Shown here piece by piece: positions 12,513-29,702 of a stretch of 39,130 nt of DNA. Origin of the DNA: Deltaproteobacteria bacterium. GTDB lineage: Bacteria > Desulfobacterota > Binatia > DP-6. Both the position numbers and the translations under genes were made by a program. Positions within the stretch are counted from its first letter, which is position 1; every line of letters starts with the position of its first letter. The stretch is from contig VBKJ01000137.1 of the NCBI GenBank assembly GCA_005879795.1, forward strand, positions 1 through 39,130. Reading direction: 5' to 3'. Under the pieces are notes generated by a model. It had not been told where the DNA came from. It ran no database searches and saw only the letters and a list, made by a program, of their open reading frames with translations.

Positions 12513-12983
12513 GGACTCTGTCCGGTCGGCTCCGAACTCAGGTGGGTCCTCGTGGCTACCAGAGGCGAGTTTCTCCCCTCGAGCTCACTCGCGCAACTCG
12601 TCACCCGGGTCATCCCGGAGTGACGGGGGACCCGCCTCGGTGCAACGAGAGCAGGAGCGCCGGCAGGTGATCGGCCTGCCAAAGCGAGCCCGGGCCGCAA
12701 GGCGGCAGGTGGTGAGGCGAATCGCCACATTGTGACCTCCCGCCTCATTGTCGAGACAGACCGTCACCGGCAGGCGCCGCGAGCCCCCGAGTTCTCTAGG
12801 CGGCTGGCGGGCACCGTTCCTGCATGCTACGGGCCTCGCAGCGGACCCTCGCGCTCTCCGAGCGCGAGATGGAGGGGACTCCTGCTACTGCCCTCACTAC
12901 GAAGATGCAGGCGGGGTGGGGGAGGTCGTCCGCCGCCTCTCCGCCGCCATGGCGGCGCGCAGCGCCGGCCGCGAAGCCGCACT
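12513..12983. other. 471-bp divergent gap with no supported gene
   Basis: Between the start of the Cys-rich protein (-) and the phosphatase fusion (+). It holds short inverted repeats (GGCAGG 12662-12667 with CCTGCC 12675-12680; TGAGGCG 12713-12719 with CGCCTCA 12741-12747) and a 12-codon frame at 12949-12987 (starts MAARSAG) whose TGA overlaps the proposed CTG start of the next gene. Longer open frames here are Arg/Pro-rich and look non-coding. I see no convincing promoter. Confidence 0.4.
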
Positions 12984-14051
12984 CTGAAGGCGAACGCATG
13001 CATCGCGGCTCTGGTGGGCGCGCTGGTGGCCGCGCCGCTGGCGGCCGCGCCGCCGACGCCCGCCGCCGTGCCACGGGATATCCACGCCGGCGTCCGGGTC
13101 AGGCTGGAGGCCACGATGACGAGACCCAGGACGGTCGTGGCGGAGGGGGTCGAAATCGTGGCGGGCGCCGAGGGCGAGGACGGTCTGAAGGCGGTCATCG
13201 AGACCGTGGACCCGGAGGCAAAGACGCTGACGGCGCTCGGCATCAAGATCGTCGCATCGGACGCGACGGTGCTCCGGGGGGAGAGCCAGGAGTGCCTCCC
13301 GTTCTCGGCGATACGGCCCGGCCGGCGGGTCTCCGCGAGGGGGACGTTCCGCGGCGACGCGACGCTCGTCGCCTCGAAGCTCAGGATCAGGCCCGAGAAG
13401 CCCGAGAAGGCGCGGGACGTCACGCTCGAAGGACCGGTCCAGCAGGTGGATTCCGGGAGCACGAGCTTTGCGGTGCTCGGGGTGACCGTGATGCTGACGC
13501 CGCAGACGAAGATCGAGCGCGGCGGGCGCGGAGGAGAAGGGCTCGCGCGAAGAGTCGTGACGGGTGCTCCCCGAGGGGAGGCGCCTCCGTCCATTCCGAG
13601 CTACGGGGTGATCTGGAAGGAGAGGCTCACGCGCTCCGGTGAGCCCAGGGATGAGGCCGGATGGACCTGGCTCCGCACTCATGGCGTCCGGTCCGTCGTC
13701 AACTTCCACTTCCTCCCGGAGGACAAGGAGGCGTCCGAACGGGCCAGGTTCGAGCACTACCTGTCGCTGCCGTTCGAGGAAAAGGAGCCCCCCACGGACG
13801 CCGAGGCGGAGACGTTCCTCGCCTTCGTCCAAGACCCGCAGCACTGGCCCGTCCACATCCACTGCAAGGAAGGGAGATACCGCACGGGGCTCATGGCTGC
13901 CCTGGCGCGATACGCCATCGATGGCTGGTCGATCGACGAGGCGCTGGCGGAGGCGAGGCGCTACACCAGGGGCAAGGACCTGTACGCGCGGGACGTCAAC
14001 TGGCTCCGCCGCTGGGCTGCCAAACACAAGCCCGGCAGCCACCCCCTCTGA
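12984..14051 (+). CDS. Exported DUF5666-like plus dual-specificity tyrosine phosphatase fusion
   Basis: About 355 residues. If started at CTG 12984 the N-terminus is KANACIAALVGALVAAPLAA, a convincing signal peptide; no ATG or GTG lies nearby in frame. GTG 12732 would add 84 unrelated residues, and ATG 13114 would lose the signal. Residues about 50-185 hold two DUF5666-like beta units (GLKAVIETVDPEAKTLTALG... and VTLEGPVQQVDSGSTSFAVLG). Residues about 200-345 are a cysteine phosphatase: GVIWKERLTRSGEP, GVRSVVNFHFLPED, and the catalytic loop VHIHCKEGRYRTGLMAAL with C-x5-R (H-C-K-E-G-R-Y-R-T-G). It would remove phosphate from protein or another substrate, apparently in the periplasm. It converges with the DAHP synthase gene. 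Confidence 0.7.
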   Translation: MKANACIAALVGALVAAPLAAAPPTPAAVPRDIHAGVRVRLEATMTRPRTVVAEGVEIVAGAEGEDGLKAVIETVDPEAKTLTALGIKIVASDATVLRGESQECLPFSAIRPGRRVSARGTFRGDATLVASKLRIRPEKPEKARDVTLEGPVQQVDSGSTSFAVLGVTVMLTPQTKIERGGRGGEGLARRVVTGAPRGEAPPSIPSYGVIWKERLTRSGEPRDEAGWTWLRTHGVRSVVNFHFLPEDKEASERARFEHYLSLPFEEKEPPTDAEAETFLAFVQDPQHWPVHIHCKEGRYRTGLMAALARYAIDGWSIDEALAEARRYTRGKDLYARDVNWLRRWAAKHKPGSHPL

Positions 14052-18421: not shown

Positions 18422-20191
18422 ATGCCCGCCGTTGCAGGAAGACCGCTCGCCGCCCTGATAGTGCTCGTCATGTTGGCGGGGCCGGCGCGGGCCACCACGT
18501 TCGTCGGCGTGAGCGAGCGCACGCTGGTCCGGGCCGCGGACGCGATCGTGATCGGCACGATCGCGCAGATCGAGACGGTCGCCGGCGCCGACGGGACGAT
18601 CAGCACGCTGGTCACGCTCGACGTCGAAGAGACCGTGAAGGGCCACGTCGAGCGGCGCCTCGCCCTCAAGGAGCCGGGTGGCCGCATCGGCGGCCGCACG
18701 CTCTGGATCGCGGGCGCACCGCGCTTCCGGACGGGCGAGCGGCAGCTCCTCTTCCTCTCCGCCGCCGCGGACGGGACGGCCCACACGACGGCCCTCGGCA
18801 TGGGGCAGTTCGTGCTGGGGCGGCACCCGCGTACCGGCGCCGCGCTCGCCGAGCGGCGCGTCGACGGCCTCGTCGTCGGCGACCGCCCGCTCCGGCGCGT
18901 GGCGCTCGCGCGCCTGCGGCGCACGCTCGCGCGCGCCGTCGCGCAGGGGGGCGGCGCTGCCGCTCCGCTCCTCGCCACCCCGCCCGAGCTCCTCGACCCC
19001 GGCCGCGAGCGCGCTCCGGTCGCCGAGTTCACCCTCTTGGAGGACCCCCCGGGCCGCTGGTTCGAGGCGGACAGCGGCCAGCCGGTCGTCTACCAGACCG
19101 CCGGCCACGACGCCGCCCTGGGCGAGGGCGCCTCGCTCGCGGCCATCGACGCCGCGCTCGCCGCGTGGACGAACGTGAGCGGCGCGAGCATCGTCCTCGA
19201 GCGCCAGGGGACGACCGTGCCCGCGCCGCTCAGCTGCGACGGGATCTCGCAGATCGTCTTCGCCGATCCCTTCCGCGAGATGCCGGACCCGGTCGCGTGC
19301 AGCGGCGTGCTCGCGCTCGGCGGCTACTGCACGTCCGCGGATACGGACGCGGTCGACGGCAAGACCTTCTATCGCATCACCGAAGGCAACATCACCTTCA
19401 ACCGGGGCTTCGCCGGCTGCCCCTTCTGGAACGCGACCAACCTGGCCGAGGTCGCAACCCACGAGCTCGGCCACACGATCGGCATCGGCCACAGCTCCGA
19501 GAGCGACGTCGCGCCGCCGGTGCTGAAGGACGCCACCATGTACTACCGGGCGCACTTCGACGGACGCGGCGCCTCGGTGCACGCCGACGACATCGCGGCG
19601 GTGCGCTTCATCTACCCCGGTCCGGGCGGCGGCGACCCGAGGGTCGAGGACATCGACGGCGACGGCCTCCCCGACGCCGAGGACGACTGCCCCGCGATTC
19701 CGAACCCGGCGCAGACCGACACCGACGGCGACGGCCTGGGTGACCTCTGCGATCCGTGCCCGCTCGCGCCCGGCGGCGAGGGAGCCTGCCAGCCGATGTA
19801 CGTGGGCCGGCTGCGCATGACGCTCGCCGGCCCGCGGAGCCGGCTCGTGTGGCGCGGCTCGCTCGATCTGCCCGACGGCACGCCGCCGTCCGCCGCCCGG
19901 GTGCTCCTGGTCGACGCGCGCGGCGTCGTGGTGGACACTGCGACCGGGAGCCCGCTCGCGCGTGCGGGCTCCCCCCGCCGACGCCTCCGCTACCGGAGCG
20001 GTCGCGCTCTGATCACGCTCCGTCCCCGCCGCGGGGGCCGCTACCGGGTCCGGGTCGCGGTGCGCGGCCTCGACCTCGGCGCGGACGGCATGTCGCTCCT
20101 GAGCGCGAGCCTCCAGGTCGGCTCCCAGAACTTCGCCGACTCGCTCAGCTGCGAGCGCCCCCGCCACCGCCACGTCACCTGCCGCGACTGA
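18422..20191 (+). CDS. Secreted matrixin-type metalloprotease with thrombospondin type 3 repeats
   Basis: 589 residues. Signal peptide 1-24 (PLAALIVLVMLAGPARA). The zinc motif HELGHTIGIGHS at 347-358 is HExxHxxGxxH with catalytic Glu348, and ATMYY at 371-375 supplies the Met-turn Met373, both as in matrixins (peptidase M10). Upstream, ASLAAIDAALAAWTNVSGASI is the usual pre-catalytic helix. Residues 409-447 form two calcium-binding Asp-rich repeats (DIDGDGLPDAEDDCP, TDTDGDGLGDLCDPCP) of the thrombospondin type 3 kind. A basic beta-rich tail follows. It probably cleaves extracellular protein. No obvious cysteine-switch pro-peptide is visible. The start ATG has weak upstream signals. A structured 123-nt element follows the stop by 30 nt. 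Confidence 0.88.
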   Translation: MPAVAGRPLAALIVLVMLAGPARATTFVGVSERTLVRAADAIVIGTIAQIETVAGADGTISTLVTLDVEETVKGHVERRLALKEPGGRIGGRTLWIAGAPRFRTGERQLLFLSAAADGTAHTTALGMGQFVLGRHPRTGAALAERRVDGLVVGDRPLRRVALARLRRTLARAVAQGGGAAAPLLATPPELLDPGRERAPVAEFTLLEDPPGRWFEADSGQPVVYQTAGHDAALGEGASLAAIDAALAAWTNVSGASIVLERQGTTVPAPLSCDGISQIVFADPFREMPDPVACSGVLALGGYCTSADTDAVDGKTFYRITEGNITFNRGFAGCPFWNATNLAEVATHELGHTIGIGHSSESDVAPPVLKDATMYYRAHFDGRGASVHADDIAAVRFIYPGPGGGDPRVEDIDGDGLPDAEDDCPAIPNPAQTDTDGDGLGDLCDPCPLAPGGEGACQPMYVGRLRMTLAGPRSRLVWRGSLDLPDGTPPSAARVLLVDARGVVVDTATGSPLARAGSPRRRLRYRSGRALITLRPRRGGRYRVRVAVRGLDLGADGMSLLSASLQVGSQNFADSLSCERPRHRHVTCRD

Positions 20192-20774: not shown

Positions 20775-21472
20775 GCGAAGCCCGCCCGCTGCGGACCATC
20801 GCGGCCTGGGGCGTGCACCTCCTCACGGCGAGCACCGCACCCGCGGGCGTGCTCGCGATCCTCGCCGCCGAGCGGGGCGACGCGGCCGCCGCCATGGGCT
20901 GGATGGCCTACACCCTGGCCGTCGACTCGATCGACGGGACGCTCGCGCGCGCCGTCGGCGTGAAGCAGGTGCTGCCCTTCTTCGACGGAACGCGGCTCGA
21001 CGACATCGTGGACTACTTCACCTACGTGATCGTGCCCGTGCTCTTCGTCCTCCGCTTCGACCTCCTGCCGCCGGCGCTCGGCGTGCCGGTGGCGCTCTGC
21101 CCGGTCATCGCCAGCGCCTACGGCTTCTGCCGCACCGACGCCAAGACGGCCGACCACTACTTCACCGGCTTCCCCTCGTACTGGAACATCATCGCCTTCT
21201 ACCTCTACACGCTCGGGTGGCCGCAGGCGCTGAATGCCGCCGTCGTGCTCGTCTTCTCGGTCGGGGTGTTCGTGCCGATCCGCTACCTCTACCCCTCGCG
21301 CACGCCCGTGCTCCGCCCGCTCACGGTCGGGCTCGGCCTCGTCTGGGGCGGCGCGGTGGTCTGGTCGCTGGCGCACCTGGCGACCGTGCCGCGCACGCTG
21401 GTGGTCGCCTCGCTCGCCTTCCCGGCCTACTACGTGGGGCTCTCGCTCGCCCTCCACGTGCGGCGCGCGTGA
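20771..21472 (+). CDS. pcs: Phosphatidylcholine synthase (CDP-alcohol phosphatidyltransferase)
   Basis: 233 residues with about eight hydrophobic segments; an inner-membrane enzyme. The CDP-alcohol motif is D55-G-T-L-A-R60, then G73-x3-D77-x3-D81, with 12 residues between the two halves. VKQVLPFFDGTRLDDIVDYFTY and the later FCRTDAKTADHYFTGFP, then SYWNIIAFYLYTLG, match the bacterial phosphatidylcholine synthase pattern, which joins choline to CDP-diacylglycerol in one step. Whether free choline or another alcohol is used cannot be told from sequence. The GTG start overlaps the VOC stop by 4 nt, and its own stop overlaps the DUF4838 start by 4 nt, giving a three-gene translationally coupled operon. 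Confidence 0.85.
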   Translation: MSEARPLRTIAAWGVHLLTASTAPAGVLAILAAERGDAAAAMGWMAYTLAVDSIDGTLARAVGVKQVLPFFDGTRLDDIVDYFTYVIVPVLFVLRFDLLPPALGVPVALCPVIASAYGFCRTDAKTADHYFTGFPSYWNIIAFYLYTLGWPQALNAAVVLVFSVGVFVPIRYLYPSRTPVLRPLTVGLGLVWGGAVVWSLAHLATVPRTLVVASLAFPAYYVGLSLALHVRRA

Positions 21473-23274
21473 GCGCGGATCTCGCGCGGCTCGCGGCGGG
21501 CGTGCTGCTCGTGCCCGAGGGCGCGCCCGAGCCGGTCGCCTTCGCGGCCGAGGAGCTGGGCGCGTACCTCGGGCGGATGTTCGGGCCGAGCCCGGTGCAG
21601 CGGAGCGTGGCGGGCCCGGGCGGGGCCTGGCTCTGCCTCGCGCCGGCGGACGCCCCGGTCGCGGTGCGGGCGCTCGCGGTGCCGGCGGGCGCGGAATGGG
21701 TCGTCCGACCGGCGGACGACGCGGCGGTGGTGAGCGGTGCGTCGCCGCGCGCACTCCTCGCCGGCGTCTACGGCCTCCTCGAAGCGGCCGGCTGCCGCTG
21801 GGCGCCACGCGGGACGCACGAGGAGCACGTTCCCCGCCCGGACACGGCGCGGCGCCCGGTGGCGGCGCTCGAGCTGCGGCCCGCCTTCGCCCGCCGCGCC
21901 TTCGCCGCCGACCTCGCGACCTGGCACTACGGCGTGCCGGAGCGGCTCGCCGCGCGCCTCCCCTCCGACGTGGCGTTCGTCGACTGGATGGCCAAGCGCG
22001 GCGCGACCGGGCTCCTCTTCATCCGCCACGCGAACGACACGCAGTGGGTCATCCCGGAGCTGGTGCCGGAGCTCCGCCGGCGCGGGCTCGACGTCGAGGG
22101 CGGCGGCCACGTGCTGGTCGAGCTGCTGCCCCGTTCGCTCTTCGCGGCGCACCCGGAGCGCTTCCCGCTCGCGCCCGACGGACGCCGCTCCGACCTGGGG
22201 AACGTGTGCGCGGCGAGCGCCGCGGCGCTCGCCGTGGTGCGCGAGCGCGCGGCGGCGGCGCTCGCTGCGCTCCCGGGCGCGACCGATTTCCATCTCTGGG
22301 GGCTCGATCTCCCGGGTGGCGGCTGGTGCGCGTGCCCGTCGTGCGCCAGGCTCTCGCCCGCCGACCAGGCGCTCAGCGTGTGCAACGCGGTCGCAGAGAC
22401 GCTCGGCGCGGGCACCCGCGTCCTTCACCTCGCCTACCACGACACGCTCGAGTCGCCGCGCGCCGTGCGGCCCCACCCGCGCGTCTGGGCGGAGTTCGCA
22501 CCGCGCGAGCGCTGCTACGCGCACCCGCTCGAGGACCCCGCGTGCGCGACGAACGCCCCCTACCGCCGCGCCCTCGACGCGCACCTGACGCTCTTCGCGG
22601 GCCGCGTCCACGTGTTCGAGTACTACGGCGACGCGATCCTCTTCGGAGGCTGCGCGGTGCCGCTCGCCGAGGTCGTGCAGCGGGACCTCGACTACTACGC
22701 CCGCGCGGGCGTGCGCGGCGTCTCCTGCCTCGTCTTCGGACAGTACAGCCTGTGGGCGTACGGCGTGAACGTGGAGGCGTTCGCACGCGGAGCGGTTTCG
22801 CCTGCCGCCGCCGCGAGCGCGCGCGGCACGCACGCCGCCGGCTTCGGGCGGGCGGCCGAGCCCGTGGCGCGTTACCTGGCGGCGCTCGAGCGCGTCATGG
22901 CCGGGGTGGTGACCTACGGCGACGTGCTCCTGCCGCCGGCCGAGGCCGAGCGCGCGGCCGCCGTCCGCGCCGCGCTCGCGGCCGCACGCCGGCAGGCCCC
23001 CGAGCTACGCCGCCTGCTGGCGGCGGCGCCGGTCCGCCTCGCCGCCGAGGAGCACCTCCTCGACTACACGTTCGCCGTGCTGGGGGCCCTCGAGCGCTGG
23101 CTCGCCGCGGCCGATGCGGAGGCCCGCGAAGCCGCGCTCGCCGCCCTGGCCGGCGCGGTCCGTCACGTGCGGGCGGCGGGGCTCGTGGGCGCCGGCACCT
23201 GGGGCCTGCACGACCTCGAGATCACGCACCACTTCTTCGCCGGCGCGCTGCGCGCACGCGGCGCCGGTCAGTAG
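21469..23274 (+). CDS. DUF4838 domain protein (glycosidase-like)
   Basis: 601 residues without a signal peptide. The N-terminus (residues about 10-125) resembles the small domain that precedes family 67-type barrels: PEPVAFAAEELGAYLGRMFG, SPRALLAGVYGLLEAAGCRWAPRGTHEEHVP. The middle carries the DUF4838 signature LWGLDLPGGGWCACPSCARL with C287, C289 and C292, then LSVCNAVAETL, and later VFEYYGD. The C-terminal part is helical. Such proteins are predicted carbohydrate-active, but no reaction is known to me. The GTG start overlaps pcs by 4 nt. The 3' end overlaps the opposing cytochrome/monooxygenase gene tail-to-tail by 7 bp. Confidence 0.75.
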   Translation: MSADLARLAAGVLLVPEGAPEPVAFAAEELGAYLGRMFGPSPVQRSVAGPGGAWLCLAPADAPVAVRALAVPAGAEWVVRPADDAAVVSGASPRALLAGVYGLLEAAGCRWAPRGTHEEHVPRPDTARRPVAALELRPAFARRAFAADLATWHYGVPERLAARLPSDVAFVDWMAKRGATGLLFIRHANDTQWVIPELVPELRRRGLDVEGGGHVLVELLPRSLFAAHPERFPLAPDGRRSDLGNVCAASAAALAVVRERAAAALAALPGATDFHLWGLDLPGGGWCACPSCARLSPADQALSVCNAVAETLGAGTRVLHLAYHDTLESPRAVRPHPRVWAEFAPRERCYAHPLEDPACATNAPYRRALDAHLTLFAGRVHVFEYYGDAILFGGCAVPLAEVVQRDLDYYARAGVRGVSCLVFGQYSLWAYGVNVEAFARGAVSPAAAASARGTHAAGFGRAAEPVARYLAALERVMAGVVTYGDVLLPPAEAERAAAVRAALAAARRQAPELRRLLAAAPVRLAAEEHLLDYTFAVLGALERWLAAADAEAREAALAALAGAVRHVRAAGLVGAGTWGLHDLEITHHFFAGALRARGAGQ

Positions 23275-24890
23275 TAGGTCCCCGTGAGCACGCACATCTC
23301 GTCGTCGGTGGTGACCCCGAAGGTGAGCGTGGTCGGATTGCCCGACCCGTCGCGCTTGACCGGCCGGGTGACGCCGTTGTCGTGCAGGCACTCGAAGTCG
23401 ACCCAGTCGCCGGGTACCAGCACGACGGGCGGCTCGAACGGCCGGCTCACGGGGTGCGACCAGTCGAAGTTCTCGTAGGCCTTGCTGCCGTCGGACCACC
23501 GGGCGGTGAAGCGGAGCCCGCGCTTGTGCATGTGGCCGGAGAGGCCGAGCAGGTAGATCGGCGTCGTGCCGCCGTTGGTGAAGCGCCCGGGCTGCACCTT
23601 CTGCGTGAAGGGCGGCACGCTGATCGTGAACATGTCGTTGAAGTCGGTGAGCGTCTTGGCGATGTGCTCGGGCGTGCCCGGGTAGGGGTAGACGTTCGTC
23701 CACACCTTCATCTGGATGGGCACGTCGAAGTTGTTCGCGTAGTGGGCGTTGAGGCCGACGTAGGTCCCGGCCCGCAGGAGGCGCGCGATGCCGGGCGCGT
23801 AGAGGTCGATGTAGTACGGGGCCTGCGGTGACCCGGAGAGCGAGTTGCCGAACATCGCGCCCGAGGTGCAGCCGGTGTCACCCGCCTTCCACACGCCGAC
23901 GGGCGGCGTGCCCTCCCTGTCCCACGGGAAGATCGCGAAGTGGTGCGTGCCAGGGTTCAGGAAGAACTCCCACTTGCCGACCGCGAGGTCGGTCGGGTTG
24001 GGGACCGCCATCCAGAGGCAGCCCTCCAGCTCCTCGCCGGGCGCGAGGGTCGGGCCGTCGAGCACGAGCTGGTAGCCGCCGGGCGGCGGCGGCGTGGGCG
24101 TGGTCGGCACGTAGTCGGGCTCCAGCAGGCAGGGCGCCGCCGCGACCACGCCCGTGCGCGGCGCGCCGGCGTCGATCCAGGCATCCACCAGGTCGATCTC
24201 GCTCTGCGTGAGGGCGAGGCCGACGAGCGGCATGCGCGCGCCCTCGCCGTCGGCGAGCGTGCCGTGGAGCTTCTGCGAGAGGAAGCTCTCGGCGGCGTGA
24301 CCCGGGAGGACGCGGAGCTTCCCCGCGGCGGCAGCGGCCGGGTTCGAGGCGGGCACACCGACCAGGCTCTCGTAGGAGCTGCCGGGGAGGAGGTCGAGGC
24401 TCGCCTGACCGAAGACGCCGTGGCAGCTCGTCACCGTGCAGCCCCGGAAGGCGAGCACGCGTTGCTCGATCACCGCGTAGGTGTCGTCGCCCCGCGTGCA
24501 GGAGGTGGAGATCTGGGCCCGCGTCGCGCTGAAGCGTCGCCGGTACCTCGAGCGCCCGAGGCGAAGCGCGCCGGTCATCGTCCCGCAGGTGGCCGCGTCG
24601 ACGGTGGCATTGAGACGGACCCGCGCGTTGTACTGGCCGCAGCCGCGCCAGTCGGCCCTGATGCGCGTGCCCCGCTTGGCCGCCCACACGTGCGCTTCCA
24701 CCGGCGCGCAGCCGCTGCGGATCGAGACCTGAGGCGTCTCGAGGATGACCGCGTCGGTTCCCGGGCGCCCGGATCCCAGGAGCGGGGACCCCGGCAGGAC
24801 GAAGCGCCCCGGCGCGCAGAGGGGTCTCACGGCGCTCGCAGCGGGCGAGGCGAGGAGCGCGATCAGCGGTAGCAAAACCCGGAGGGACAT
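23268..24890 (-). CDS. Exported cytochrome c / copper type II monooxygenase-like fusion
   Basis: 540 residues. Signal peptide 1-20 (LLPLIALLASPAASA). Residues about 25-140 form a Cys-containing beta module. Residues about 145-245 are a cytochrome c-like domain with C151-x4-C156-H157 and axial Met220 (ARMPLVG, then LTQSEIDLVDAWIDAGAP). Residues about 270-540 resemble the peptidylglycine/dopamine monooxygenase fold and keep all six copper ligands: H316-H317 (GTHHF), H383 (NAHYAN), H453-x-H455 (GHMHKRG) and Met532 (DEMCVLTGTYY). It would hydroxylate a C-H bond using copper and O2, with the haem domain perhaps donating electrons. AGGAGGT lies 7 nt before the ATG. Confidence 0.8.
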   Translation of the reverse strand: MSLRVLLPLIALLASPAASAVRPLCAPGRFVLPGSPLLGSGRPGTDAVILETPQVSIRSGCAPVEAHVWAAKRGTRIRADWRGCGQYNARVRLNATVDAATCGTMTGALRLGRSRYRRRFSATRAQISTSCTRGDDTYAVIEQRVLAFRGCTVTSCHGVFGQASLDLLPGSSYESLVGVPASNPAAAAAGKLRVLPGHAAESFLSQKLHGTLADGEGARMPLVGLALTQSEIDLVDAWIDAGAPRTGVVAAAPCLLEPDYVPTTPTPPPPGGYQLVLDGPTLAPGEELEGCLWMAVPNPTDLAVGKWEFFLNPGTHHFAIFPWDREGTPPVGVWKAGDTGCTSGAMFGNSLSGSPQAPYYIDLYAPGIARLLRAGTYVGLNAHYANNFDVPIQMKVWTNVYPYPGTPEHIAKTLTDFNDMFTISVPPFTQKVQPGRFTNGGTTPIYLLGLSGHMHKRGLRFTARWSDGSKAYENFDWSHPVSRPFEPPVVLVPGDWVDFECLHDNGVTRPVKRDGSGNPTTLTFGVTTDDEMCVLTGTYY

Positions 24891-24920: not shown

Positions 24921-25496
24921 CTACCCGACCAGCCACTCGAGCAGTGAGCGGATCTCCTTCTCGCCGAAAGGAGGCGGTGGCGCCTCGCCCTCGGCTCCCT
25001 TGCGTATCCAGCTCCCGTCCTCGCGGAGCAGGAGGTCGTACCAGTCCGCACCGGCAGGGTCGGCCGGATCGTATTGAATGACCGACGCCGTCGCGAGCGC
25101 CCCCACCGGCACCGGCCGCCCGCCCAGGTTGACGAGCGGGCTCACCACCACCTCGAGGCGGCGGTCGAGGAACTTGAGGACGAGCCGCGCACCGTCCGGG
25201 ACCTCGATCCCCCCCAGGTTCTTCGGGTTCAGGATCCTCTCGATCACGAGGAGCGGGGTCCCCGCCTCCTTGTTGACCGCCGCGGTCAAGGTCTCGAGGC
25301 TCCGGAAGAGCGCCTTCACGTGCTGGGCACGGAGCGCGAAGCGCTCCTTCTCGCGGTTGCCGCGGCGGCCGGGGACTGGGGAGGCGTGGGCGCGGTCGAG
25401 GGCCCGCTCGGCCATCTCCTTCGTCCACTCCCGCAACGCCGGGGAGCGAGCCGGCTCCGCGGCGCCCGCCTTCTGGCTGCGCGGCGCCTCGTGCAC
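24921..25496 (-). CDS. Conserved-looking protein of unknown function
   Basis: 191 residues if started at GTG 25496, which lies 6 nt after a TACTTT -10 box (leaderless). ATG 25415 gives 164 residues and is the alternative. The N-terminus is charged and helical (EWTKEMAERALDRAHA). The middle and C-terminus are beta-rich (ARLVLKFLDRRLEVVVSPLVNLGGRPVPVG, IQYDPADPAGADWYDLLLREDGSWIRKG) and end in FGEKEIRSLLEWLVG. No signal peptide or membrane segment, and no family recognised. Its position between the DUF1302 genes and the cytochrome/monooxygenase gene on the same strand suggests a shared pathway, but this is only context. Confidence 0.6.
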   Translation of the reverse strand: MHEAPRSQKAGAAEPARSPALREWTKEMAERALDRAHASPVPGRRGNREKERFALRAQHVKALFRSLETLTAAVNKEAGTPLLVIERILNPKNLGGIEVPDGARLVLKFLDRRLEVVVSPLVNLGGRPVPVGALATASVIQYDPADPAGADWYDLLLREDGSWIRKGAEGEAPPPPFGEKEIRSLLEWLVG

Positions 25497-25532
25497 GAAA
25501 GCAAAGTACGGGAGGCCGCTGCGGCGTGTCAA
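25497..25532 (-). promoter_or_regulatory. Leaderless-type promoter of the unknown gene
   Basis: TTGACA (25532-25527), an 18-bp spacer, TACTTT (25508-25503), 6 nt, GTG at 25496. The predicted transcription start falls on the GTG. Confidence 0.55.
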
Positions 25533-25588: not shown

Positions 25589-27484
25589 TCAGTTGAGCTG
25601 CGCCTGGACCTTGAGCTGCAGGATGTCGTGCCCCCGGAACGTGGCCAATCCGGCCCGCCGCGAGCCTTCGATGGCGACGTAGCTGGCGGCCAGGAGGACG
25701 TTGTCGGTCAGGCGGTAGACCACCGACGGCGCGAAGCCGAAGATGCCGCTCACATCGAGGATGGCCACGACGCGCGGCTCGAGCCTGCCGTGCAGGTAGT
25801 CGGTCTGGAGCGCGATCTGCATGAACTGGTTGTCGAACTTGTACTGGTCCTCGAAGCCCTTCGTGTTGGCCTTCTGGCAGGTGATGAAGAACTTGCCGTT
25901 GGGTCCGGGCTTGTCGCAGTCGGGGGTGCCCGGGATGCGTCCGAGCACGGTCGCCGGCTTCCCCGGCTTCTGCTCGCCCAGGTAGCGGAAGTCCATTCCG
26001 CGCCGCTCGAGGAGGTTCCACTGCCCGTGCCAGGCGGTCACCAGGACGAAGGAGTTCGTCGGGTTGAGGGGGCGGAAGAAGAAGAAGGTGTCGTAGCCGA
26101 TCACCCAGCGCAGGTAGTCGGTCTTCGGGATCGTGTTGACGATCGGGCTCCCGTCGGGGTTCCTCGCGGTCGGCACCTGCCCGCGGGGGTTCAGGTTCTT
26201 CTCCGGGATGAAGGCGAGCTCGTCGATGAAGGCCTCCGCCTCGGTGCGGATCACGCCGCGCACCGTCGGTGAGAACCAGCTCGCGGAGACGCCCGCGACC
26301 GACTCCAGGCGCCGCTCGAGGATGGTGACCAGCGCGAGGGCCTTCGAGCACGGCCGCCCGGACGGCGTGAACCCCGCCTTGCTGCACACCGGCACGCGGA
26401 AGCCCCGATCGTCGATCTGGATCGGGACGATGCCGTTCGGGTTGCTCGCGCTCCGCGTGTTGTTCAGGCCGCCCGGGGTCGACAGCAGGGGGACGGGCGC
26501 CTGATTGAAGGTCCGGTAGAACCACCCCTGGAGCGTGTACTCCCGGAGGAGGAGGCTCTGCAGCCTCACCCCCCAGCGGGTGTTCGCCCAGCTCATGGCG
26601 GGCTGATGGCTCACGAGGTCCAGGTGCAGCAGCTTCCCGATCGCCGGCCCGCCGAGGGCGGTCACCTGGTTCTGCGGATCCGGGACGTCCGGGTTGAAGG
26701 GGCTCACCCCGGCCGTGATCGGATCGGTCGGCACGGTGGTGTCGACGACGCCCGGAATGACGTACGTGTCCAGGAAGCCGCTCGAGAGCGAGCCCCAGTC
26801 GTCGAACATCTTCACGGTGTTGCGGAGCGCCCAGGCCGGGATGCGGGCCTCCTCGAGATCCTGGATGAGGCCAGGGACGCCGAGGGTCAGGTCGAAGAGG
26901 TTGGTCACGTCGAGCAGCGCGATGTCGTCCGACTCGCCCCACGAGATCGCCTGCCGCCCCACGCGCGTGAACAGCCGGCCCTTGGTGTAGTCGAGGTAGA
27001 GCTCGTTGATCCGGTTGCGGCTCGCGTAGATGTGGCGCGGGTTCTTGTTCTGGTCGTTGAAGACGAAGGAGTCCTTGTTCACCTTGTCGGTCTCTGCGAA
27101 GCGCGCCTTGTACGCCTTGCGCGCGTCGTTCCACTCGGGGTCGAGGTAGTCGTAGAGCCCGTCGTAGAAGCCCCACCACGCGAAGCGGAACTTGAACTCA
27201 TCGGGGGAGAGGAGCGAGAGACCCGGAACGTTGTCCGTCCAGTGCATGTAGTCGGTGAGCCGCGCGTCGAACTCGGGGTTGTAGAAGTTCCGGTGCTGCG
27301 CCAGGTCGCCGATCTTGTAGCGCGTCGGCTGGTCCTTCTCGGCGTCGTCCATCATGATGCCGAGCTGGGAGTAGACGCGCGCCCGGAGGTCGAAGTTGCG
27401 GTTGCCTCCCAGAAAGTAAGACTGCGCCGACGATCCGACCCCGAGGACGAGGCCGAGCACCAGCCAACCTGTCCAGGTCCGCAT
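25589..27484 (-). CDS. DUF1302-like outer-membrane protein, copy 1
   Basis: 631 residues. Signal peptide about 1-22 (MRTWTGWLVLGLVLGVGSSAQS). The mature protein is beta-rich and aromatic, with GRLFTRVGRQAISWGESDDIALLDVTNLFDLTLGVPG, the pattern expected of DUF1302-type barrels that are often linked to uptake or handling of hydrophobic compounds. It is close to full-length identical in layout to the protein at 27801-29702, with most residues unchanged. It ends in QLKVQAQLN rather than a terminal Phe. Two conserved Cys pairs (VPVCSKAGFTPSGRPCSK and DCDKPG...TCQ) could form disulfides. It was probably made by tandem duplication. No DUF1329 partner gene is seen. Confidence 0.7.
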   Translation of the reverse strand: MRTWTGWLVLGLVLGVGSSAQSYFLGGNRNFDLRARVYSQLGIMMDDAEKDQPTRYKIGDLAQHRNFYNPEFDARLTDYMHWTDNVPGLSLLSPDEFKFRFAWWGFYDGLYDYLDPEWNDARKAYKARFAETDKVNKDSFVFNDQNKNPRHIYASRNRINELYLDYTKGRLFTRVGRQAISWGESDDIALLDVTNLFDLTLGVPGLIQDLEEARIPAWALRNTVKMFDDWGSLSSGFLDTYVIPGVVDTTVPTDPITAGVSPFNPDVPDPQNQVTALGGPAIGKLLHLDLVSHQPAMSWANTRWGVRLQSLLLREYTLQGWFYRTFNQAPVPLLSTPGGLNNTRSASNPNGIVPIQIDDRGFRVPVCSKAGFTPSGRPCSKALALVTILERRLESVAGVSASWFSPTVRGVIRTEAEAFIDELAFIPEKNLNPRGQVPTARNPDGSPIVNTIPKTDYLRWVIGYDTFFFFRPLNPTNSFVLVTAWHGQWNLLERRGMDFRYLGEQKPGKPATVLGRIPGTPDCDKPGPNGKFFITCQKANTKGFEDQYKFDNQFMQIALQTDYLHGRLEPRVVAILDVSGIFGFAPSVVYRLTDNVLLAASYVAIEGSRRAGLATFRGHDILQLKVQAQLN

Positions 27485-27520
27485 GGCGGGCCCTATCGAA
27501 GACTCCGCTGCGCTTGTCAA
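27485..27520 (-). promoter_or_regulatory. Promoter and candidate operator of DUF1302 copy 1
   Basis: TTGACA (27520-27515), a 17-bp spacer, GATAGG (27497-27492), 7 nt, ATG at 27484. The -35 box sits inside the palindrome GCTTG-A-CAAGC, also present with one change at copy 2. A repressor bound there would block the -35; the nearby TetR protein is the natural candidate. Confidence 0.5.
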
Positions 27521-27800: not shown

Positions 27801-29702
27801 TCAGTTGAGCTGCGCCGTGACTCTCAGCTGCAGGATGTCGTGGCCACGGAACGCGCCGAATCCCGCCCGCCGCGAGCTCTCGATGGCGACGTAGGTCGCG
27901 CTCAGGAGGACGTTGTCCGTCAGGCGGTAGATCACCGACGGATTGAAGGCGAACATGCCGCTCACGTCGAGGAGCGCCACGATGCGCGGCTCGAGGAGGC
28001 CGTGCATGTAGTCGGTCTGGAGCGCGACCTGCAGGAACTGGTTATCGATCGTGTAGAGGTCCTCGAAGTTCTTCGGGTTCACCGTCTGGCACGTGAGCCC
28101 GAACTTGCCGTTGGCCCCGGGCTTGTCGCAGTCCGGGGTGCCCGGGATGCGTCCGAGCACCGTCGCCGGCTTCCCCGGCTTCTGCAGGCCGGCGTAGCGG
28201 AAGTCCATCCCGCGCCGCTCGAGGATGTTCCACTGGCCGTGCCAAGCGGTCACGAGGGTGAAGGAGTTCGTCGGGTTGAGCGGGCGGAAGAAGAAGAAGC
28301 GGTCGTAGCCGATCACCCAGCGCAGGAAGTCGGTCTTCGGGATCGTGTTGATGATCGGTCTCCCGTCCGGGTTCTTCCCGAAAATCGGCACCTGCCCGCG
28401 GGGGTTCAGGTTCTTCTCCGGGATGAAGCCGAGCTCGTCGACGAAGGCCTCCGTCTCGAGGCGGATGACGCCGTCCACCCGCGGGCTGAACCAGCTCGCG
28501 GAGACGCCGGCGACCGACTCGAGGCGCCGCTCGAGGGTCACGACGGTCGCGAGGGCCTTCGAGCACGGCCGCCCGGACGGCGTGAACCCGGCCTTGCTGC
28601 ACACCGGCACGCGGAAGCCCCGGTCGTCGATCTGGACGGGGGTGATGCCGTGCGGATTGCTTGCGCTCTTCAAAATGTTGAGGCCGCCCGGCGACGAGAG
28701 CAACGGGACGGGCGCTTCGTTGAACGTCCGGTAGAACCACCCCTGCAAGGTGTAATCGCGCAGGAGCACACCTTCGAGCCGGGCTCCCCAGCGGGTGTTC
28801 GCCCACGTCATCGCCGGCTGATGGCTCACGAGGTCCAGGTGGAGCAGCTTCCCGACCGCCGGGCCGCCGACCGCGGTTATCTGGTTCTGCGGATCCTGGA
28901 CGTCCGGATTGAAGGGGCTGACGCCCGCCGTGATCGGATCGATCGGCACGGTCGTGTCGACCACGCCGGGTACGACGTAGGCGTCGGCGAAGATGCTCGA
29001 CAGCGGGCCCATCGTCTCGGCCACCTTCACCGTGTTGCGGAACGCCCACACGGGGATGCGCGCCTCGTCGAGGTCCTGCATCAGGCCCGGCACGCCGAGG
29101 GTCAGGTCGAAGAGGTTGGTCACGTCGAGGAGCGCGATGTCGTCCGACTCGCCCCACGCGATCGCCTGCCGGCCCGCCCGCATGAAGACCCGCCCCTTGC
29201 TGTAGTCGAAGTAGAGCTCGTTGATGCGGTTGCGGCTCGCGTAGATGTGGCGCGGGTTCTTGTTCTGGTCGTTGAAGACGAAGGAGTCCTTGTTGACCTT
29301 GTCGGTCTCTGCGAAGCGCGCCTTGTACGCCTTGCGCGCGTCGTTCCACTCGGGGTCGAGGTAGTCGTAGAGCCCGTCGTAGAAACCCCACCACGCGAAG
29401 CGGAACTTGAACTCCTCGGGGGAGAGCAGCGAGAGGCCCGGGACGCGATCCGTCCAGCGCATGTAGTCGGTGAGCCGCGCGTCGAACTCGGGATTGTAGA
29501 AGTTCCGGTGCTGCGCCAGGTCGCCGAAGCTGTAGCGCGTCGGCTGGTCCTTCTCGGCGTCGTCCATCATGATGCCGAGCTGCGAGTAGACACGCGCGCG
29601 GATGTCGAAGTTCCGCCCCTTGTCCAGAAAGTAAGCCTGCGCGGTCGATCCGGCCCCGAGGACGGCGAGGCCGAGCACCAGCCAACGGGACCAGGTCCGC
29701 AT
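27801..29702 (-). CDS. DUF1302-like outer-membrane protein, copy 2
   Basis: 633 residues, with a signal peptide of about 23 residues (MRTWSRWLVLGLAVLGAGSTAQA). It aligns throughout with copy 1 (25589-27484), sharing long blocks such as LTLGVPGL.QDL, WWGFYDGLYDYLDPEWNDAR and GRIPGTPDCDKPG. Differences cluster in loops: FGKNPDGRPI against TARNPDGSPI, and ILKSASNPHG against NTRSASNPNG. Such loop divergence fits two porin-like proteins with different ligands. This copy is adjacent to tetR and likely keeps the ancestral arrangement. As in copy 1, there is no C-terminal Phe. The family name rests on pattern and architecture. Confidence 0.7.
   Translation of the reverse strand: MRTWSRWLVLGLAVLGAGSTAQAYFLDKGRNFDIRARVYSQLGIMMDDAEKDQPTRYSFGDLAQHRNFYNPEFDARLTDYMRWTDRVPGLSLLSPEEFKFRFAWWGFYDGLYDYLDPEWNDARKAYKARFAETDKVNKDSFVFNDQNKNPRHIYASRNRINELYFDYSKGRVFMRAGRQAIAWGESDDIALLDVTNLFDLTLGVPGLMQDLDEARIPVWAFRNTVKVAETMGPLSSIFADAYVVPGVVDTTVPIDPITAGVSPFNPDVQDPQNQITAVGGPAVGKLLHLDLVSHQPAMTWANTRWGARLEGVLLRDYTLQGWFYRTFNEAPVPLLSSPGGLNILKSASNPHGITPVQIDDRGFRVPVCSKAGFTPSGRPCSKALATVVTLERRLESVAGVSASWFSPRVDGVIRLETEAFVDELGFIPEKNLNPRGQVPIFGKNPDGRPIINTIPKTDFLRWVIGYDRFFFFRPLNPTNSFTLVTAWHGQWNILERRGMDFRYAGLQKPGKPATVLGRIPGTPDCDKPGANGKFGLTCQTVNPKNFEDLYTIDNQFLQVALQTDYMHGLLEPRIVALLDVSGMFAFNPSVIYRLTDNVLLSATYVAIESSRRAGFGAFRGHDILQLRVTAQLN

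Follow-up and report, generated by a model that had tools for sequence, protein, structure and literature searches.

The stretch of DNA analysed here (the window) comprises 39,130 nucleotides of contig VBKJ01000137.1 from a Deltaproteobacteria bacterium (GTDB lineage Desulfobacterota; Binatia; DP-6; assembly GCA_005879795.1) and carries a gene, P0001, whose 540-residue product joins a cytochrome c domain to a dicopper core of the type found in peptidylglycine monooxygenase (PHM) and dopamine monooxygenase (DBM, or dopamine hydroxylase, DBH). The cytochrome domain, with its haem attachment motif and a distal methionine, stands in front of a core that has the PHM fold and all six copper ligands, and related proteins recur in fused, unfused and split forms. 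In our reading, to which we give a probability of about 0.62, this is a secreted PHM/DBM-fold copper monooxygenase with its own haem reductase domain, acting as an O2-dependent hydroxylase.

The open reading frame (ORF) and the position of every residue named in a preliminary description of the window, which had proposed the fusion, were confirmed by script, and profile searches, fold comparisons and alignments agree on a cytochrome c CX4CH motif and a PHM/DBM-type core with all six ligands. The correspondence of the named residues and the ligand set to the PHM/DBM copper sites is far beyond chance. A strong Shine-Dalgarno sequence (aggaggtg) lies directly 5' of the ATG, and we propose that the protein is exported to the periplasm or the cell surface.

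Haem and copper domains of the fusion protein

A profile of 11 fused proteins (alignment A3) matched PHM at E 2.5e-12 and DBH at E 4.9e-9, covering the whole core, with the HH, H, HxH and M ('DEMC') motifs in register with both enzymes, and PF03712 (Cu2_monoox_C) was matched by seven of 11 family members at E ≤ 0.1 (best 6.7e-10). The AlphaFold2 model of residues 129-540 (412 residues, 35 alignment rows) reached a predicted local distance difference test score (pLDDT) of 84 and a predicted template modelling score of 0.74. When this model was searched with Foldseek, DBH 4zel and PHM entries ranked first (E 1.5e-13 to 1.3e-10, with 4zel at the top), and VIA-align returned Z scores of 19.9 for PHM 6ala_C (3.1 Å over 245 residues) and 19.2 for DBH 4zel_A, while PNGases and capsid-type double jelly rolls, which came next, did not exceed 8.4. 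The predicted structure contains two jelly-roll domains in PHM topology and the homologues retain the copper ligands, two features on which the preliminary description had made its proposal depend. In alignment A1, composed of the window protein and four full-length relatives (55, 49, 46 and 32% identical), the six copper ligands are invariant, as are C151, C156, H157, M220, C291, C341, C501 and C533. From the fetched loci, 90 distinct copper cores were collected by profile similarity, a set that leans towards conserved members, and 76 of them have a haem domain in front; 64 of these 76 keep all six ligands, two have His in place of Met, and the remaining 10 have a gap at one ligand site that stems from alignment or truncation, no other residue being seen there.

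The ligand spacing of the fusion protein (HH-66-H-70-HxH-77-M) resembles that of rat PHM (107/108-172-242/244-314), in which we take H242 and H244 to be ligands. The other copper ligands of rat PHM, H107, H108, H172 and M314, are listed in a published study (PMC6123673). The cysteine pair C291/C341 is lost together in L057 and L058, and C501/C533 together in L057; because each pair is lost jointly, the two probably act as disulfides. Their positions presumably match those of the two core disulfides of PHM. The residues R240, N316 and Y318, which we take to bind the peptide in PHM, align to S451, V534 and T536, and since these peptide-binding residues are absent, peptide amidation is an unlikely activity. 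A subfamily with fused, unfused and split members has His in place of the CuM Met (E-H-C/A, not E-M-C; L059, L060, the unfused L002/L008 and L050, and also L137, L213, L216 and L218), so the chemistry may differ between branches.

In the haem domain, compared here with class I-like c-type cytochromes, the C, C and H of the motif are present in all 35 rows of alignment A4 and the Met in at least 90%. Residues 135-240 of the window protein alone weakly match the haem part of TIGR03806, and the haem-domain profile matched FoxE (1.3e-9), hydrazine synthase alpha (4.1e-5) and cytochrome c6 (0.0016). The AlphaFold2 model of the domain alone (pLDDT 88.6; built without haem) was best aligned to 5c2v_D and, with Z 7.8, to FoxE 5mab_C, and all six entries shown at Z ≥ 2 were haem proteins; as the best Foldseek match on its own had an E of 0.13, the fold evidence for a cytochrome is supportive, not decisive. 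For cytochrome c assembly, three PF01578 matches over the cut-off were found in the window genome.

The CX4CH spacing had been called unusual, a remark that does not apply within this group: it is rare overall, two intervening residues being usual, yet the rule in the fusion family, with CX4CH in 70, CX5CH in four and CX2CH in two of the 76 distinct fused proteins. The CX2CH of the Latescibacterota relative L057 aligns at the same site, and CX3CH occupies it in L006 and L054. The four CX5CH proteins (L111, L112, L114 and L115; genomes G328 and G248) belong to one lineage. In L006/L203 (G000:C202) and L054, the CX3CH cytochrome is joined to an apparent copper core without the histidine motifs, and a further gene alongside, distinct from this one, resembles a core and has HxH and EDEMC. 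A search of the genome's DNA for patterns encoding CX4CH was uninformative (10 places vs. 14 in a backward control).

The first 125 residues are variable across the five rows of A1, and the N-terminal module is swapped for another in the orthologue of G005. This module of about 110 residues also heads several unrelated secreted proteins in these genomes (L004, L005, L009, L016, L023 and L027). As the first 125 residues vary and the module is replaced and reused, the conserved core of the protein is the cytochrome plus the copper enzyme.

Distribution of fused, unfused and split forms

Among the seven genomes of the same family, full-length orthologues occur in G001, G004 and G005 besides the window genome (G000), the orthologue of G002 is cut by a contig end, and G001 holds a second copy that is 32% identical. 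A contig scan across genomes with the single window protein found no relative, and the scan with an alignment returned 55 loci, the majority of which matched through their cytochrome part alone. Reading of the loci identified fusions in L055, L056 (record VBKG01000277.1, DP_3), L057 (Latescibacterota), L058 (Poribacteria), L059, L060 and L063 (Sandaracinaceae). In the phylum of G405 (Sandaracinaceae, i.e. Myxococcota), where up to seven candidates were scored per genome and the figures are lower bounds, at least 43 of 235 genomes have a match at E ≤ 1e-40, at least 11 of the 43 with a match spanning both halves, and nine of the 14 loci read there are fused, all with CX4CH. Within the window's own phylum, with up to four candidates scored per genome, at least four of 395 genomes (window genome included) match at the same threshold. 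As read from these loci, the fusion constitutes a family that is present not only among relatives of the window genome but also in Myxococcota, Latescibacterota and Poribacteria, and it takes fused, unfused and split-operon forms.

Some uncultured bacteria carry many copies. The genomes behind L059 (G403, record OFTM293) and L060 (G404, record Co_bin.122) have 35 and 28 matches, respectively, at E ≤ 1e-15, a count that includes hits to the cytochrome alone, and of the 20 places read in each (L146-L185), 19 and 20, respectively, hold frames of more than 450 residues that match the profile; nine frames (L186-L194) were obtained from G400, the genome behind L055. With a strict motif script, the complete set of sites was recovered from seven of nine frames in G400 and, for G403 and G404 alike, from 15 of 20. 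The median pairwise identity of the G403 and G404 copies is about 45%, which marks them as old paralogues and not assembly copies.

A tree was built from 45 copper cores, thinned from 76 by keeping one in four of the G400, G403 and G404 frames, and its supported branches require four or more switches between the fused and the unfused state. One row scored as unfused in this tree, L145, is preceded by another type of CXXCH domain, which makes the unfused tally a slight overestimate; L145 and the fused L063 pair join on long branches. A split version is found at G401:C164 (L195), where a 346-residue copper-core frame is followed by a 167-residue cytochrome frame (CALSSCH, CX4CH), end to start on one strand, and both genes are lipoprotein-like. 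At L197 (G000:C135:55361-58251), two unfused copper-core genes adjoin on the same strand with no related cytochrome. Two further loci, L098 and L105, come from records titled as Klebsiella pneumoniae and Akkermansia muciniphila metagenome-assembled genomes and encode long cytochrome-containing proteins that are atypical of the two species; these records may be mislabelled.

Electron delivery and competing explanations

PHM and DBH need ascorbate, and the electron route to and between their two coppers is still debated. In the mechanism that we favour for the fusion protein, a covalent haem c would accept electrons one by one, either from the respiratory chain or from a periplasmic carrier, and hand them to CuH, so that the haem domain would stand in for ascorbate and for the DOMON domain of DBH; with CuH and CuM reduced, O2 would bind and be activated at CuM, and a C-H bond of a small molecule or polymer would be hydroxylated before the haem is re-reduced. 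Domain order, the fold of the copper core, its ligands, the haem motif with its distal Met and the recurrence of the forms are established computationally, and the loading of haem and copper, the direction of electron flow and the O2 chemistry are what we infer. The idea of a built-in electron donor, put forward in the preliminary description, is plausible and is strengthened by repeated fusion, fission and the one split operon.

The fusion protein shares with PHM the two-domain jelly-roll core, the HHH and HHM copper sites and a similar ligand spacing, and differs in being bacterial, in having a cytochrome c domain in front and in an identity of only about 17%. The nearest structural parallel is DBH, described in PMC4846438 as an ascorbate-dependent enzyme with an extra N-terminal domain before the same core, a DOMON domain without the typical haem ligands; DBH also has a dimerisation tail, whereas the fusion protein has a cytochrome c domain and no tail. 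The Pfam scan gave no DOMON match in the fusion protein, and the domain preceding its core matches cytochromes c. Lytic polysaccharide monooxygenases (LPMOs) have one copper and another fold than PHM/DBM; fungal LPMOs are reduced by the cytochrome domain of cellobiose dehydrogenase, a separate partner enzyme with haem b in a DOMON fold. The nearest precedent for the electron path is the c-type cytochrome domain CjX183 (Cbp2D) of Cellvibrio japonicus, which reduces and activates a bacterial copper monooxygenase, an LPMO (PMC8981238), donor and LPMO being separate proteins, unlike in the fusion. By both profile and fold, the haem domain comes closest, among solved structures, to FoxE and hydrazine synthase alpha, which have no copper core and serve other functions.

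The flow of electrons could also be reversed, the copper core oxidising a substrate and the haem collecting electrons for the respiratory chain, which would make the protein an oxidase or dehydrogenase and not a monooxygenase. FoxE, annotated in its PDB entry as a putative iron oxidase, is among the nearest solved cytochromes, and the Met532 to His subfamily hints that not all members perform classic PHM chemistry; the window protein, however, has the full PHM/DBM ligand set including the Met, and since the known chemistry of such a core consumes electrons, we hold this explanation to be unlikely. It is quite unlikely, too, that the two domains work independently, with the haem domain docking or sensing redox state and the copper core being reduced by other periplasmic reductants. 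The same cytochrome domain does occur where a copper core is missing from the protein (L015, L018-L022, L041 and L043), and a number of unfused cores lie apart from any related cytochrome gene; against this stand the conserved domain order, the repeated fusion, the split operon and the presence, in two genomes, of 19-20 fused copies each. A third alternative is that CX4CH binds no haem and is a disulfide or structural motif, the protein then being a copper-binding protein or a copper monooxygenase of the ordinary, unfused kind; the motif is not canonical, and no Pfam cytochrome model matches the window protein. This is very unlikely, given that homologues alternate CX2CH, CX3CH, CX4CH and CX5CH at the site, that C, C, H and Met are conserved, and that a published survey includes CX4CH among the haem c motifs (PMC5566968).

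Some results weigh against a copper monooxygenase with its own haem reductase. The Pfam scan of the window protein returned Cu2_monoox_C as its sole match and below threshold (PF03712, 12.7 bits vs. a cut-off of 23), with no cytochrome model matched and no match in the N-terminal module. The haem-domain model reached a best Foldseek E of 0.13 and a top Z of 7.9 (5c2v_D), a value in the grey zone. No related cytochrome gene was found within about 6 kb of unfused cores where the sequence reached that far, and among the loci checked for it one was present only beside the degenerate copy in G000:C202; as some copper cores have neither a haem domain nor a nearby cytochrome, not every such core depends on the haem. 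Finally, the 20 flanking ORFs showed no shared function in Pfam, so that no conserved neighbourhood points to a substrate.

Neighbouring genes and significance

Table 1. Features of the fusion gene and of the genes upstream of it, with window coordinates
Feature	Position	Strand	Basis or remark
Fusion gene P0001, 540 residues: signal peptide, N-terminal module, cytochrome c domain, PHM/DBM-type dicopper core	23268..24890	-	ORF, sequence, alignment
Sec-type signal peptide, residues 1-20	24831..24890	-	judged by eye from sequence
N-terminal module, residues 21-128, variable	24507..24830	-	alignment of relatives
Cytochrome c domain, residues 129-250	24141..24506	-	alignment, AlphaFold2 model, profile, structure alignment
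Haem attachment motif C151-TVTS-C156-H157 (CX4CH)	24420..24440	-	motif script; alignment A4
M220, presumed distal haem ligand (MP motif)	24231..24233	-	alignments A1, A4
PHM/DBM-type dicopper core, residues 268-540	23271..24089	-	profile search, AlphaFold2 structure alignment
CuH ligands H316-H317	23940..23945	-	script, alignments
CuH ligand H383	23742..23744	-	script, alignments
CuM ligands H453-x-H455	23526..23534	-	script, alignments
CuM ligand M532	23295..23297	-	script, alignments
Small gene just upstream of the fusion	24921..25499	-	no Pfam match; not found beside other fusions
DUF1302 porin-like protein, same strand as the fusion	25589..27520	-	link not conserved elsewhere
Second DUF1302 porin-like protein	27801..29702	-	link not conserved elsewhere

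The two DUF1302 proteins had been taken as porin candidates that might import a substrate for the enzyme. The analysis does not support this link: the window DUF1302 proteins were matched (phmmer) in none of 13 loci around fusions. Nor does PF06980 speak for a partnership with DUF1302 porins: in each of the six other genomes searched, its matches and the fusion are on different contigs, some of the fusion contigs being short (12 kb in G004) and others 142-243 kb long. On the plus strand, a DUF4838 protein (21217-23274) converges on the fusion gene, their 3' ends overlapping by seven bases. Further away on the same strand, the window encodes a Matrixin (M10) protease with a thrombospondin type 3 repeat match (18422-20191) and one ORF with DUF5666 repeats and a tyrosine-phosphatase-like domain (12732-14051).

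In an open-access library, no paper on a cytochrome c-PHM fusion was found; the component domains are known, and it is their combination in one chain, its spread and its expansion that were not found described there. Uncharacterised database entries with a cytochrome-PHM architecture probably exist. In its table of copper proteins, a metalloprotein review (PMC7435645) lists PHM and DBM among the eukaryotic ones only.

The present findings show the PHM/DBM core, which resembles the animal enzymes behind noradrenaline and amidated peptides, in bacteria of several phyla, as an enzyme that probably brings its own reductase. With haem and copper on a single natural chain, the delivery of electrons could be traced by optical means and probed with mutants. 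We consider it nearly as likely as not that these proteins represent an undescribed, large class of secreted bacterial haem c-dicopper monooxygenases that would run on respiratory electrons instead of ascorbate in several phyla, with about twenty diverged copies per genome forming an extracellular or periplasmic oxidation arsenal in some uncultured bacteria. The fusion family is a candidate oxidation system in soil bacteria.

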